In this document: piece after piece, positions 10,659 to 28,451 of the stretch
Numbering within the stretch: the stretch's first letter is position 1
Layout of the letters: the number at the start of each line of letters is the position of its first letter
NCBI GenBank assembly: GCA_031278815.1
Contig: JAITJS010000066.1
Location: forward strand, 1 to 36,983
DNA length: 36,983 bases
Source of the DNA: Treponema sp.
Lineage (GTDB): Bacteria > Spirochaetota > Spirochaetia > Treponematales > Breznakiellaceae
Reading direction: 5' to 3'
Notes under the pieces: model-generated
Told to the model about the DNA's origin: nothing
Seen by the model: the letters and a program-made list of their open reading frames with translations, nothing else
Databases searched by the model: none
Program-made: the position numbers and the translations under genes

Positions 10659-11339
10659 GTGAGTAGTATTAAAACCATTATGAAACATCCGCTTATCGCA
10701 CCTTCCCTCCTTTCTGCAGATTTTTCTCATTTCGCCGAAGCAGTGGCGGCTATTGACGCCTCCGGGGCGGAATGGGTTCATCTGGACGTGATGGACGGCC
10801 ACTTTGTTCCTAACCTTACCTTTGGTCCAAAACTTGCAGCAGACCTGCGGCCTCAAAGCAGAGGGGTTTTTGATGTACACCTGATGGTCTATGAGCCTGA
10901 AAACCTGGCACGAGCCTTTGCCCAGACTGGGGCTGATTATATTACCTTTCATGCCGAAGCTTTGGTTCATTCCCATAGGCTTCTCATGGTTATTCGGAAA
11001 TTGGGAAAAAAAGGGGGGATTAGTGTGGTGCCCTCCACACCGGTGTCCGGCATAGCGGAACTGTTACCTTTTGTGGATCTGGTTTTAGTCATGACCGTGG
11101 ATCCGGGATTCGGCGGTCAAGCGCTGATTCCTTCTTGCCTTGAGAAGATAAAAACCTTGGTGCAGATCCGGGAACAGAGGCAGTATGAATTTTTAATCTC
11201 TGTGGATGGAGGGGTTAATGAATCCACGGCCTCCCTGGTCCGGGAGGCTGGGGCTGATGTCTTAGTTACCGGATCGGCCTTTTTTAATGCTCAGGATAAG
11301 GCTGCTTTGGTACGGCGCTTAAAAGGTCTGGAAACGTGA
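10659..11339 (+). CDS. rpe: Ribulose-phosphate 3-epimerase
   Basis: This enzyme converts ribulose 5-phosphate to xylulose 5-phosphate in the pentose phosphate pathway. The TIM-barrel signatures are intact: APSLLSADF, HLDVMDGHFVPNLTFGP (metal and catalytic residues), DVHLMV, MTVDPGFGGQ and SVDGGVN. I place the start at GTG 10659, which has AAGAAGGGG a few bases upstream and gives 226 residues, the normal size. The ATG at 10680 has no ribosome site. A longer reading from 10560 would begin inside the ppdK terminator. The gene is followed by a 106-nt gap and the TPR-protein gene. Confidence 0.95.
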   Translation: MSSIKTIMKHPLIAPSLLSADFSHFAEAVAAIDASGAEWVHLDVMDGHFVPNLTFGPKLAADLRPQSRGVFDVHLMVYEPENLARAFAQTGADYITFHAEALVHSHRLLMVIRKLGKKGGISVVPSTPVSGIAELLPFVDLVLVMTVDPGFGGQALIPSCLEKIKTLVQIREQRQYEFLISVDGGVNESTASLVREAGADVLVTGSAFFNAQDKAALVRRLKGLET

Positions 11340-11445
11340 AGGACCTGGGTTTGGGAGGTACCGTTCCTGTGAACTGGAGAAATGATAGATTGTAGAGCCA
11401 GAAGATGAGCAAAACTAACCTATCCTGTGGATATACCGGTAATTA

Positions 11446-24331: not shown

Positions 24332-26176
24332 ATGAGCAATAGCACCCCTTGGGAGACCAATAGCGCCATCATCAGGGAAAAGTTTCCCGGTCTCTTGGAG
24401 CAACTGAGCAACCCTGAGCCGGGGAATCCAGCATCTATCCGCATAGAAACCGCTGCATCCGGGGATCCGACCCTGATCATCCACGGCATCTCCATTCATT
24501 CTCGACGGGATCCCAGACGGGAAGGCCGGCGATTAGCAGAGACCCTGAAGGGTACGGGTCCCCTCATCATCTTGGGCTTTGGATTGGGGTATGGAGCAGA
24601 AGGGATCCTGGAAAAGACCGGGTTTTCCCCAAACCGTCCCATCATCCTAGTGGAGCGCCGGGCCGAGGTTTTGCGAAAGGCCCTGGAAACCAGAGACCTC
24701 AGTCCCCTCCTTTCTGCAGGTTCCCTGATCTTTGTTCTGGGAGGAGCAGAAGAGGGGATCACCGGAGCGCTCCACTTTTGCAAAACCCAGGTACCCGGTG
24801 GAAAGGGTGCTCCTGAGCTTATCCGCAACCGGGGCCTTATGCAGCTTGATGCGCCGTGGTACGCCGGGGTAGAACGGCATATCCATGCCTGGACCGCCCA
24901 GGATACGGTCAACCAGGCAACCCTCCGACGTTTTGGAAAACGCTGGGTCCGCAATGGCTTACGAAACTTGCAAGCCATCCGGGACCTGCCGGGGATTAGG
25001 CATCTTACCGGAATCCTGACCCCTGAGATCCCTACGTTTCTTGCTGCGGCAGGCCCATCCCTGGACCGGATCGCTCCCCTCTTGCCTGCCATCCAGCAGC
25101 GCTGTGTCATGGTGGCAGTGGATACGGCCCTGCGGTGCTTCGTCCGAGCAGGGGTGGAGCCGGATTTTGCGGTGGCGGTAGATCCCCAATACTGGAACTT
25201 CCGGCATTTGGACCGCCTTCCGTTACCGAAGACCCGGTTCATCCTGGAATCTGCGGTATACCCTCCGGTCCTTCGGCATCCCTGTGCGGGGCGCTTCCTC
25301 TGTGCCTCCCTGTACCCCATAGGCAAGTTTATCGAAGACCGGCTTGACCCCAAGGGGCGTCTCGGTGCAGGAGGCTCGGTGGCAACCACTGCCTGGGACT
25401 TTGCCCGGATGCTGGGTTCATCCTCCATCTGGATAGGGGGTTTGGATCTTGCCTTCCCAGGCCTGAAAACTCATTTTAAGGGGGCCCGTTTTGAGGAACA
25501 GGCCCTCTCAGAAGCGACCCGGTTTAGTCCTGGGGAAACCCGTACGTTCAGGGCCCTACGGGATGGGAACCCGTTCTGGGCGGCGGCTGCGGACGGAAGC
25601 CGGGTTCTGACGGATCAACGCTTATCCCTGTACGCGGCATGGTTTGAAAACCGGTTCCACGAAACTCCAGGACTCAGGAATCATCGCCTTTTTGGGGAAG
25701 GGCTTGCCCTATCCGGCTTGGGGACCGCTTCCCCAGAAGAAGTCCTGGCTCTGCCAATCCTACGGGAGAAAATAGACCAAACCCTGGGGAGGGCTTTTTC
25801 CCGGGTACACCAGGACTTTATGGGGCCAGCTCAGGTACAAGAACGAAGGGTCCGCTATGCTGCGGCCTTGGGGGAATTGGTCCAAGGGCTTAAAACGATC
25901 AAAGCCCTGGCGGATGCTGCAGCGGAGATAGCCCATTCCCAGGAACAGAAAGGAAAAGGCAATTTTTTCCTTAAACAACTGACGACCATTGATAGGGAGA
26001 TTGCCGCAAATCCGGTAAAGGACATAGCAGGCTTCCTCCTGCCCCGAGGGAACCCTGCATCCGAGTCCTTTACCCAATATGGAGCATCTTCCTTGAAACA
26101 GTACCAAGCCCTTTCAGAAGCAGCAGAAGCACAGATTAACCAGATAGTACGGGGAAATTCCCTGCTTGCCGGGTAA
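24332..26176 (+). CDS. DUF115/MptE-like protein (motility accessory factor type)
   Basis: A 614-residue protein with the DUF115 (6-hydroxymethylpterin diphosphokinase MptE-like) domain at about residues 200-400. Recognisable parts are PTFLAAAGPSLDRIAPLLP, VMVAVDTALRCFVRAGVEPDFAVAVDPQYWNFRHL and GGSVATTAWDFARMLGSSSIWIGGLDLAF. In motile bacteria such proteins (Maf) are tied to sugar transfer onto flagellins, while in archaea MptE acts in pterin synthesis. Which applies here cannot be told from sequence; a flagellar role is reasonable for a spirochaete. The C-terminal 200 residues are helical. GGAGG precedes the ATG, 9 nt after the PBP stop, so it belongs to the lepB operon. Confidence 0.82.
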   Translation: MSNSTPWETNSAIIREKFPGLLEQLSNPEPGNPASIRIETAASGDPTLIIHGISIHSRRDPRREGRRLAETLKGTGPLIILGFGLGYGAEGILEKTGFSPNRPIILVERRAEVLRKALETRDLSPLLSAGSLIFVLGGAEEGITGALHFCKTQVPGGKGAPELIRNRGLMQLDAPWYAGVERHIHAWTAQDTVNQATLRRFGKRWVRNGLRNLQAIRDLPGIRHLTGILTPEIPTFLAAAGPSLDRIAPLLPAIQQRCVMVAVDTALRCFVRAGVEPDFAVAVDPQYWNFRHLDRLPLPKTRFILESAVYPPVLRHPCAGRFLCASLYPIGKFIEDRLDPKGRLGAGGSVATTAWDFARMLGSSSIWIGGLDLAFPGLKTHFKGARFEEQALSEATRFSPGETRTFRALRDGNPFWAAAADGSRVLTDQRLSLYAAWFENRFHETPGLRNHRLFGEGLALSGLGTASPEEVLALPILREKIDQTLGRAFSRVHQDFMGPAQVQERRVRYAAALGELVQGLKTIKALADAAAEIAHSQEQKGKGNFFLKQLTTIDREIAANPVKDIAGFLLPRGNPASESFTQYGASSLKQYQALSEAAEAQINQIVRGNSLLAG

Positions 26177-26501
26177 GCACCAGATGGCAGTCTGAGTAAT
26201 AGCAACGGGAAAAGAGCCCTTCTATTGCCGCTTGACCCGTTGGCATCACGGTCCCGAAATGCCTCATTGAGAAAAAAGGTAGCTATTCAGTCGAGGGGAA
26301 AGAGCGATAAGTTTGCATGCATTTATGACATATCGACAAAAACAGGGTAATCGATCAATCGAGAGGGGGATAAGCCCATTACCATACTAAGCAGACCACA
26401 TTGGAGAAGTTCGGGAAAGAACCGCTCAAAACCACCGTTACGTGACGGGTATAAGCCTGATAAGGTATCCATCCGGTTCCCGCGTAAGGCCGTATGAGAT
26501 A

Positions 26502-26660
26502 TTATGAAGCACTTGCGCTCCGGCAATGATTTGGCTTATAGTTTTCATGGCCTGCCGCCGCCTGACATTCTGCGGCCTCCCAGTCATAAGCCGTCTGTTT
26601 TGCCGCATTCTGTAACGTGGCCGCCCAATCCTGTTCCCTCGTGGGTATCCAATCAGCCAT
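26502..26660 (-). pseudogene. Truncated fragment of a treponeme-type hypothetical protein
   Basis: A 52-codon frame starts at ATG 26660 with MADWIPTREQDWAATLQN. From memory this resembles the N-terminus of a family of roughly 200-residue hypothetical proteins common in termite-gut treponemes (a similar start, then a W-rich helical domain). After about residue 41 the sequence stops looking like protein and ends at a TAA. It lacks most of the family length, so I read it as a truncated copy. The family assignment rests on a short stretch and is tentative. Confidence 0.45.
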
Positions 26661-26677
26661 ATCAGACTATGTTTTCA

Positions 26678-27132
26678 TTATCTTACCAAACCCAGGTTTA
26701 GCGGTTCAATACCCGCATTTGGACGTTCCAATATTCTTTTTAATTCTGCCTCTGCTTGGTTTTCATCATCAGCTTCTTTTGCCTTTATCCCATAACGCCA
26801 TATTTGATGGCATTGTTCAGGATTAACTTTTTGGTCTCCCGCTATAATAGAAAACCCGCCAATTTAAATTACCCCCCACATTAAGCCTCTTGGAGCATCC
26901 TTTTTATATTGTGTCCGATATTATTGTAACGCTCTTGTAATTCATCGGTATTGCTTTTTTTATTATACCTATAAAGATGGTACTTCAAACCAGTCTCAAC
27001 GGCATAAAAAAGGATTAATCTCCTCGTCATTTGGTGATCATGAGGTTGTAGAGCATTATAGAGTGCATAATGCTTCTTGAAAGCGCGTTTTAAGTCATTT
27101 TTCGGAGCACATAGCTGAGACACAACCACCAT
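26678..27132 (-). pseudogene. Disrupted HEPN-like gene
   Basis: The minus strand has a frame from ATG 27132 (TTG 27171 is possible) to a TAA at 26881. It contains RRLILFYAVETGLKYHLYR and ERYNNIGHNIKRML, the pattern of HEPN-domain proteins, including an R-x5-H motif (RYNNIGH) like the HEPN ribonuclease RX4-6H motif. Further along, in another frame and after an in-frame TAA, a 61-codon frame (26863-26678) without a start codon reads like a C-terminal continuation (KVNPEQCHQIWRYGIKAKEADD). A frameshift plus a stop would turn a single gene into these pieces. The N-terminal ORF alone might still make a short protein. Confidence 0.5.
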
Positions 27133-27221
27133 CCCCAAAATCAAACCTAATCTCTCTCCCCGCAGCCTCAAATAACATCTCTCTAGTATGTATACCCCGT
27201 CTTGAGTTTTACTTCAATCTC

Positions 27222-27253
27222 GTCGTACCCCGCGCGAGTTCGTAGATTGAAAC
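27222..27253 (+). CRISPR. Single orphan CRISPR repeat of type I-C form
   Basis: A 32-nt element starts GTCGTACCCCG, has an imperfect central palindrome, and ends CGTAGATTGAAAC. This is the length, GTCG start and ATTGAAAC end typical of type I-C repeats. I looked for a second copy at repeat-plus-spacer distance on both sides and found none, and no cas gene is in the window. It is probably a relic of a deleted array, perhaps the degenerate terminal repeat. Confidence 0.6.
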
Positions 27254-27282
27254 CCTGGAACGGAGTACGCGGATATTCCCGA

Positions 27283-27306
27283 AGGAGGCCAAGCGATGGG
27301 CCTCCT
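27283..27306. repeat. 8-bp GC-rich inverted repeat
   Basis: AGGAGGCC (27283-27290) is complementary to GGCCTCCT (27299-27306) with an 8-nt loop. There is no T-run, so a terminator is unlikely; it could be an operator or element end near the fructokinase gene. Confidence 0.4.
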
Positions 27307-27455
27307 AGAGATTGGTAGACTCCCTTCTTTAATTACGCTTTCGTAACTCCGGAGGTGAGCTTGCAGAAAAGGAAACGACCCGGTACCCTAGTATAAGACA
27401 AGTCCATACCCTTGGTATAGAGCAGGGTGTGGTTGCGGTTATATGGAGGTAGTGA

Positions 27456-28451
27456 ATGATTGTATGTTGTGGTGAAGCCTTGATCGATATGGTTCCCGTA
27501 CCCGTGCCTACCCAGGAAAGCCCGGAGAGGGAGACCGGGTTTCTTCCCTGTCCTGGAGGGAGCCCTTATAATACCGCCCTGGCCCTGGGAAGGCTCGGCG
27601 TACCGGTGCAGTTCCTGGGGCAGCTTTCCCGGGATTTCTTTGGGGAACGCCTGATCACCCGACTGAGGCAAAACAAGGTAGGGACCGATTTACTCGTCCG
27701 GTCTGAAGCGCCTTCCACCCTGGCCTTTGTACACATCGAGGCAGGTAAAGAACCGCAGTACCTCTTTTATACCAAAGGGACCGCAGGTCCCTCCCTTACA
27801 CCGGCGGATATTCCCGAGTCCCTCCCTGAAGAGACCCAGGGCATTCTGTTCGGTTCTATTGCCATGACTATGGAACCGATAGCTTCGGCTATTGAGGCTC
27901 TGATCTTCCGGGAAGATACCCAGGCAAGGAAGCAGGGCAAAGAGCCGCCTCTTATCTCTCTGGATCCCAATATCAGGCCCTTCATGATCCCGCATCGGGA
28001 AGCCTATATACACCGGTTTGAAACATGGCTTAAAGCGGTGAGCATCTTGAAGATTTCCACAGAGGATCTGGCCTATATCTACCCGGATCAAGACCTGAAA
28101 GCAGCTATGGAAAGGACCTTGACCCTGGGCGTCCGTTTAGTGCTCCTTACCCAGGGTTCTGCCGGGGCCTTGGCCCTGTTACGGAAGGACCAGGGCGAAA
28201 TTCTCCAGGTACACTTCCCAGGTTTCCCGGTTACCCTAGCAGATACCATCGGCGCAGGGGATACCTTTCACGGAGCCTTCCTCGCCTGGCTGGAACTTCA
28301 CCGCCGCATGTCCCCTTCTCAGGTGGCCTCCCTGACCACCGAGGACCTCTCTCAAGCCCTGGGTTTTGCCAATAAAGCTGCGTCTTTGGTCTGCACCCGG
28401 CATGGGGCGAATCCTCCGACTCTGGCGGAAATGGAAGCCTTTAAGGATTAA
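27456..28451 (+). CDS. Fructokinase-like PfkB sugar kinase
   Basis: A 331-residue ribokinase/PfkB family kinase, most like fructokinases (ATP plus fructose to fructose 6-phosphate). The N-terminus MIVCCGEALIDMVP and the first signature GGSPYNTALALGRLG are typical. The second signature DTIGAGDTFHGAFLA contains the catalytic Asp and anion hole. Residues around SLDPNIRP fit the family. GGAGG lies 7 nt before the ATG. Only 2 nt separate it from aroC, so they form a pair despite unrelated functions. Substrate preference is inferred from similarity. Confidence 0.9.
   Translation: MIVCCGEALIDMVPVPVPTQESPERETGFLPCPGGSPYNTALALGRLGVPVQFLGQLSRDFFGERLITRLRQNKVGTDLLVRSEAPSTLAFVHIEAGKEPQYLFYTKGTAGPSLTPADIPESLPEETQGILFGSIAMTMEPIASAIEALIFREDTQARKQGKEPPLISLDPNIRPFMIPHREAYIHRFETWLKAVSILKISTEDLAYIYPDQDLKAAMERTLTLGVRLVLLTQGSAGALALLRKDQGEILQVHFPGFPVTLADTIGAGDTFHGAFLAWLELHRRMSPSQVASLTTEDLSQALGFANKAASLVCTRHGANPPTLAEMEAFKD

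Follow-up and report, generated by a model that had tools for sequence, protein, structure and literature searches.

A decayed solitary type I-C-like CRISPR repeat unit among insertion sequence relics in a Treponema genome

Solitary CRISPR repeat units carried by viruses and plasmids are RNA anti-CRISPRs (Racrs), and type I-C is among the systems that they target (PMC10651486). Degenerate repeats outside arrays also occur in CreTA modules, in which one or two ectopic repeats are linked to a cas locus (PMC9458426), and the portion that we draw on here of a review devoted to CRISPR components on mobile elements describes single repeats in viruses as well as CASTs in Tn7- and Mu-like transposons. 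Here we compare with these systems a lone 32-mer on a chromosomal contig of a Treponema sp. (36,983 nt, the whole of which we refer to as the window). We think it probable that this 32-mer is a dead, decayed solitary (ectopic) type I-C-type repeat unit that is stranded among insertion sequence (IS) relics, rather than the end of an array.

Likeness of the 32-mer to type I-C repeats

As read in the window sequence, the 32-mer is GTCGTACCCCGCGCGAGTTCGTAGATTGAAAC (Table 1). It has the length of a type I-C repeat, starts with GTCG and ends with ATTGAAAC, features that the first-pass annotation had already recognised. Real arrays were found with a looser I-C pattern in many genomes of the order, and one of these, in the same genus (G121:C111), consists of four repeats at a spacing of 66-68 nt, two of which are exactly GTCGCACCCCGCGCGGGTGCGTGGATTGAAAC. 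The window unit is identical to this repeat at 28 of 32 letters, the four mismatches being C5T, G16A, G19T, and G23A; the search for a matching repeat in related arrays, which had been proposed as a check, therefore turned up a close match. When scored against a PWM of array repeats the window unit has p = 6.6e-13, with an expectation of 3.6e-6 per genome, and p-values of 5e-9 and 1.5e-7 are obtained for letters 1-25 and letters 1-20 alone. The 14 array repeats behind the PWM were collected with a pattern to which the window unit itself had contributed; this biases the score somewhat in its favour, although the margin is nevertheless large. The I-C pattern, when reversed, has no matches in 294 genomes. 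Judged by its letters, the window 32-mer is no chance string, and its I-C likeness is far beyond chance.

The first-pass annotation also held that the 32-mer stands alone, which is true of close copies. The window contains no second copy of GTCGTACCCCGCGCGAGTTCGTAGATTGAAAC within 3 mismatches and no second repeat at a PWM score above 4; with 3 mismatches allowed the sequence was found once only in the 2.72-Mb draft assembly, and 119 further genomes from the family gave zero copies at ≤3 mismatches. What did not stand is the idea that such a unit is a singular occurrence, as a covariance model identified 21 solitary I-C-like 32-mers in this genome at E<3e-4, none of them in an array, with the window unit ranking 18th.

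Stem pairs 5-19 and 8-16 are both broken in the window unit. Whereas the G121 repeat folds into the expected 7-bp hairpin (-12.8 kcal/mol), the fold of the window unit reaches -2.2 kcal/mol (z +1.31) and the repeat's expected hairpin is not formed. The window unit is thus a worn-out repeat that has lost its hairpin. Because its stem is broken and no I-C cas genes were found, the unit most likely does nothing now.

Table 1. Features in and around the IS relics of the window (positions are those of the window).
Feature	Position	Strand	Remark
MptE-like (PF01973) gene, intact	24332-26176	+	left neighbour; the DUF115 gene of the first-pass annotation
Decayed fragment	26279-26426		77% identical to a stretch of G117 (C75, congeneric)
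Fragments repeated in several congeneric genomes	26447-26551	-	ORF start MKTI-QII-GAQ shared with the L095 DUF772-type transposase ORF
Additional short pieces that recur in congeneric genomes	26566-26730		26566-26605, 26621-26687, 26678-26730
Solitary decayed type I-C-like CRISPR repeat unit	27222-27253	+	32 nt; hairpin lost
IS4-family (Tn5-like) transposase gene fragment (WLETLERSTADIPEG region)	27242-27297	+	frameshifted; strong match from 27247 (TTGAAAC)
Region upstream of fructokinase gene	27340-27455	+	G010 similarity ends at 27340
PfkB-family carbohydrate kinase (fructokinase-like) gene, intact	27456-28451	+

IS relics and the question of a lost array

The description of the site as a stretch of broken genes is borne out, as the 32-mer is surrounded by an approximately 1-kb graveyard of IS fragments, with relics on both sides. 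Specifically, positions 26279-26730 are a mosaic of fragments that are repeated elsewhere in the genus and that include part of an ORF whose L095 counterpart is a DUF772-type transposase, and on the other side the final 7 to 12 letters of the unit also belong to an IS4-family fragment. The motif TTGAAAC is common to the 3′ end of the unit and the transposase relic, the match of which runs to about 27297; an intact copy of this transposase gene (L050) is IS4-family and Tn5-like according to Pfam. The overlap at TTGAAAC is such as a join at microhomology would be expected to leave. Comparison of synteny, a further check proposed in the first-pass annotation, indicated that the fructokinase gene is conserved in seven congeneric genomes but that similarity upstream of it stops at or after window position 27340, the breakpoint at which conserved DNA gives way to rearranged sequence. 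No repeat-like sequence was present at the five of these seven loci that were scanned.

Between the relics lies a 96-aa ORF (26881-27171, minus strand) that has no Pfam match and is possibly no gene. An Rfam scan of 26100-27500 gave only eukaryotic snoRNA matches, far below threshold. Similarity of the intergenic stretch to phages was rejected, the matches being at chance level only, as was the notion that the 3′ flank is a spacer against IS4: the similarity extends across the end of the repeat and beyond spacer length, no repeat follows the flank, and the presumed protospacer is preceded by AAC rather than TTC, the type I-C PAM.

The first-pass annotation had inferred that a CRISPR locus once stood here and was deleted. 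The close match of the G121 array leaves room for this reading, according to which the 32-mer is the terminal repeat of a type I-C array: a deletion took the array and its cas genes, and the repeat left behind then decayed. It would account for the closest sequence being a true array repeat of a congeneric genome, for the state of the unit (terminal CRISPR repeats often decay), and for the position of the site at a rearrangement breakpoint. However, the window holds nothing like an array of two or more repeats with spacers of about 34-36 nt, as no repeat-spacer spacing, leader, or spacer is recognisable around the 32-mer. By eye its flank bears no likeness to the G121 and G214 leaders, a comparison that a decayed leader could escape. 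The reported lack of cas genes nearby extends to the whole assembly (about 90% complete), in which neither Cas1 nor Cas8c/Csd1 was found, and Cas8c likewise went undetected in all 11 congeneric genomes and in G025 and G068, the latter two of which contain the related elements described below; several of the Cas8c-negative genomes are 66-83% complete, which makes single absences weak, yet the overall pattern is consistent. Cas8c is present in G315. Moreover, the inference of a lost array is not supported because it is normal for I-C-like units in this genome, which has no arrays of them, and in its relatives to be solitary, most of them being carried on a mobile element. The lone 32-mer is therefore no evidence for an array at this spot, and we consider it unlikely that one was lost here.

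Solitary units and a dispersed element that ends in a repeat

Among the 21 solitary 32-mers, 17 form the right end of a dispersed mobile element, whereas four, including the window unit, are bare. The three other bare units (on contigs C63, C82, and C59) are of the same sequence class as the window unit, which we read as grouping with them, and bare units of this class are also found in G061, G117, and G120. We note that several of the bare units L137 (G120:C241), L037 (G061:C199), L267 (G000:C59), and L260 (G000:C63) directly follow the end of a repeated gene that resembles DUF3782 (below cut-off), and that the G061 and G120 units have the upstream stretch GACAGCCGAGCTTAGTATGTTATAAG in common. 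Single I-C-like repeats were seen in other settings too. One (L035, G309:C135:18422-18453) lies approximately 130 nt upstream of an HD-type Cas3-like ORF, with Cas8c about 3 kb beyond that ORF, and two on viral contigs, L243 (IMGVR_UViG_2907202186_000003, 11334-11365; followed by a terminator-like hairpin) and L241 (11565-11596), are candidate solitary repeat units.

The dispersed element consists, in order, of AATAAAAAATCCCCGCC, a hairpin, GCGGGGTATTAAACCCCACGGTAAGGGCGCT, and then GTCGCGCTTCATGTGAGCGCGTGGATTGAAAC, with AAYAAA usually next, and occurs in two forms, a short one (approximately 90 bp) and a long one (approximately 170 bp). This genome has 17 strong copies (G000:C48:251-282 and 2855-2886, and copies on C22, C95, C134, C133, C27, and others; L255-L275). 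Overall we collected 40 distinct copies with both ends, and only these were used, the scan list having also held true array repeats of other taxa. Related elements with slightly different 32-mers are present in G117, G123, G061, G025, G068, and G315, and the element is common to related termite-gut treponemes, most of them without detectable Cas8c. One 32-mer of G025, GTCGCGCTCCATGCGAGCGCGTGGATTGAAAC, is identical at every letter to the repeat of a true Melioribacteraceae array (MAG, L167); this G025 copy (L022) has no recognisable left module. The inner ends of the element, AATCCMCGC and GCGKGGATT, are inverted repeats by eye, and in the case of one G068 copy, removal of the element plus one CAATAA by script restores a 230-codon ABC ATPase-like frame, such that the broken ABC gene fits an insertion with a 5-6 bp target duplication of the AATAA type. 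Because of the inverted inner ends and the target duplication at this one gene, we classify the element, from its sequence, as MITE-like, with a type I-C-type CRISPR repeat as its right end.

The stem of the element is kept in 96.8% of cells, by one-sided changes only and with zero double changes, and we therefore rejected covariation as proof of a selected RNA: the pattern is one of a kept stem rather than of compensatory evolution. An ORF start lies within 120 nt on the right side of 21 of 31 copies and on the left side of 12 of 31 as judged with a crude ORF caller, a promoter-like placement that is suggestive only. The element was not found in plasmid and phage records, and no partner transposase was identified for it. 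In three copies (L118 on C22, L113 on C95, and L261 on C125) the left hairpin is interrupted by sequence that has the terminal motif of the IS4 family, TCAAGTTTAG, at its end, as though this were a favoured site for IS4 insertion.

The window unit was rejected as a copy of this element, as the conserved left module is absent beside it: the element model R1 gives 11.7 bits (E 0.26), all of them from the 32-mer. Might it nevertheless be a truncated, decayed copy of the approximately 90-bp form? So many solitary units of the genome are ends of this kind, and IS4 ends abut the element in the three copies just mentioned, both of which would favour such an origin. Against it, the window 32-mer is 8-11 mismatches away from the element 32-mers as opposed to 4 from the array repeat, and the usual AAYAAA is not found 3′ of it. 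We regard a truncated element as improbable.

Origin and comparison with known systems

Least probable of the four readings, after the solitary unit, the lost in situ array, and the truncated element in that order, is a chance resemblance of the edge of the IS4 transposase relic to a type I-C repeat. In its favour, TTGAAAC is part of the transposase similarity, and a 3-nt gap allows the alignment to be extended leftward as far as 27234, so that it takes in GAGTT, two letters of which differ from array repeats. By our reading, however, this extension adds almost no alignment score, and only a few hundred TTGAAAC sites expected per genome have to be set against the p-values of letters 1-25 and 1-20 and the failure of the reversed pattern to match.

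If the 32-mer is a solitary unit, as we favour, a bare unit of the C63/C82/C59 class, similar in sequence to real array repeats, would have arrived at this site, a transposon-driven rearrangement joined at the TTGAAAC microhomology would have placed it beside the IS4 fragment, and neutral decay would have followed. Its intact ancestor may have been active as a crRNA-like decoy RNA or as the end of a mobile element. With 4 mismatches to a true array repeat, an origin from an array, here or elsewhere, would be equally compatible with the letters, and the absence of cas genes is uncertain at approximately 90% completeness.

One repeat that looks like CRISPR should accordingly not be taken to prove that a CRISPR locus has been lost. 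Across this lineage such repeats occur one at a time, dispersed for the most part by a mobile element, and the genomes concerned have no detectable I-C cas genes. The window unit itself is a real but minor relic, and the interesting lead is the dispersed element, in which mobile DNA of small size and a CRISPR repeat are joined. One could speculate, and we hold this to be rather unlikely, that termite-gut treponemes host tiny transposable elements with a complete I-C repeat as their right end (some 17 copies here), that the repeat serves either as a decoy RNA for I-C Cas proteins or as a site for a Cas-derived integrase in transposition, and that the window unit is a decayed stray of this traffic. 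Should the repeat work as a decoy, RNA anti-CRISPRs would extend from viruses and plasmids to MITE-like elements.

With type I-C repeats, namely those of the G121:C111 array and of arrays in G083, G027, and G090 (which carry Cas8c), the window unit shares the length of 32 nt, GTCG, and ATTGAAAC. Unlike these arrays it is single and has no spacers and no recognisable leader, its stem is broken, and no I-C cas genes were found. Like a Racr (PMC10651486), it is a single I-C-like repeat outside an array and without cas genes; unlike a Racr, it is chromosomal, lies in an IS graveyard, and has no I-C system that we found for it to inhibit, and the repeat hairpin that a Racr needs for binding Cas proteins is not kept. 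It resembles the repeats of CreTA in being degenerate and outside an array, but neither the link to a cas locus nor the guide-like stretch of CreTA was found for it. Broken as it is, and in a genome in which no cas genes were found, the window unit at present functions neither as a Racr nor in the manner of CreTA. As for the dispersed element, an element of MITE type ending in a CRISPR repeat receives no mention in the portion of the review of CRISPR in mobile elements considered here, nor did we find one in the literature covered, which takes in few subscription papers and no bioRxiv preprints; because this coverage is incomplete, the novelty of the element is provisional. In common with MITEs, it is short, non-coding, and dispersed, with short inverted ends and a target duplication at the one broken ABC gene. 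What distinguishes it from MITEs is its right end, a complete type I-C-type CRISPR repeat.
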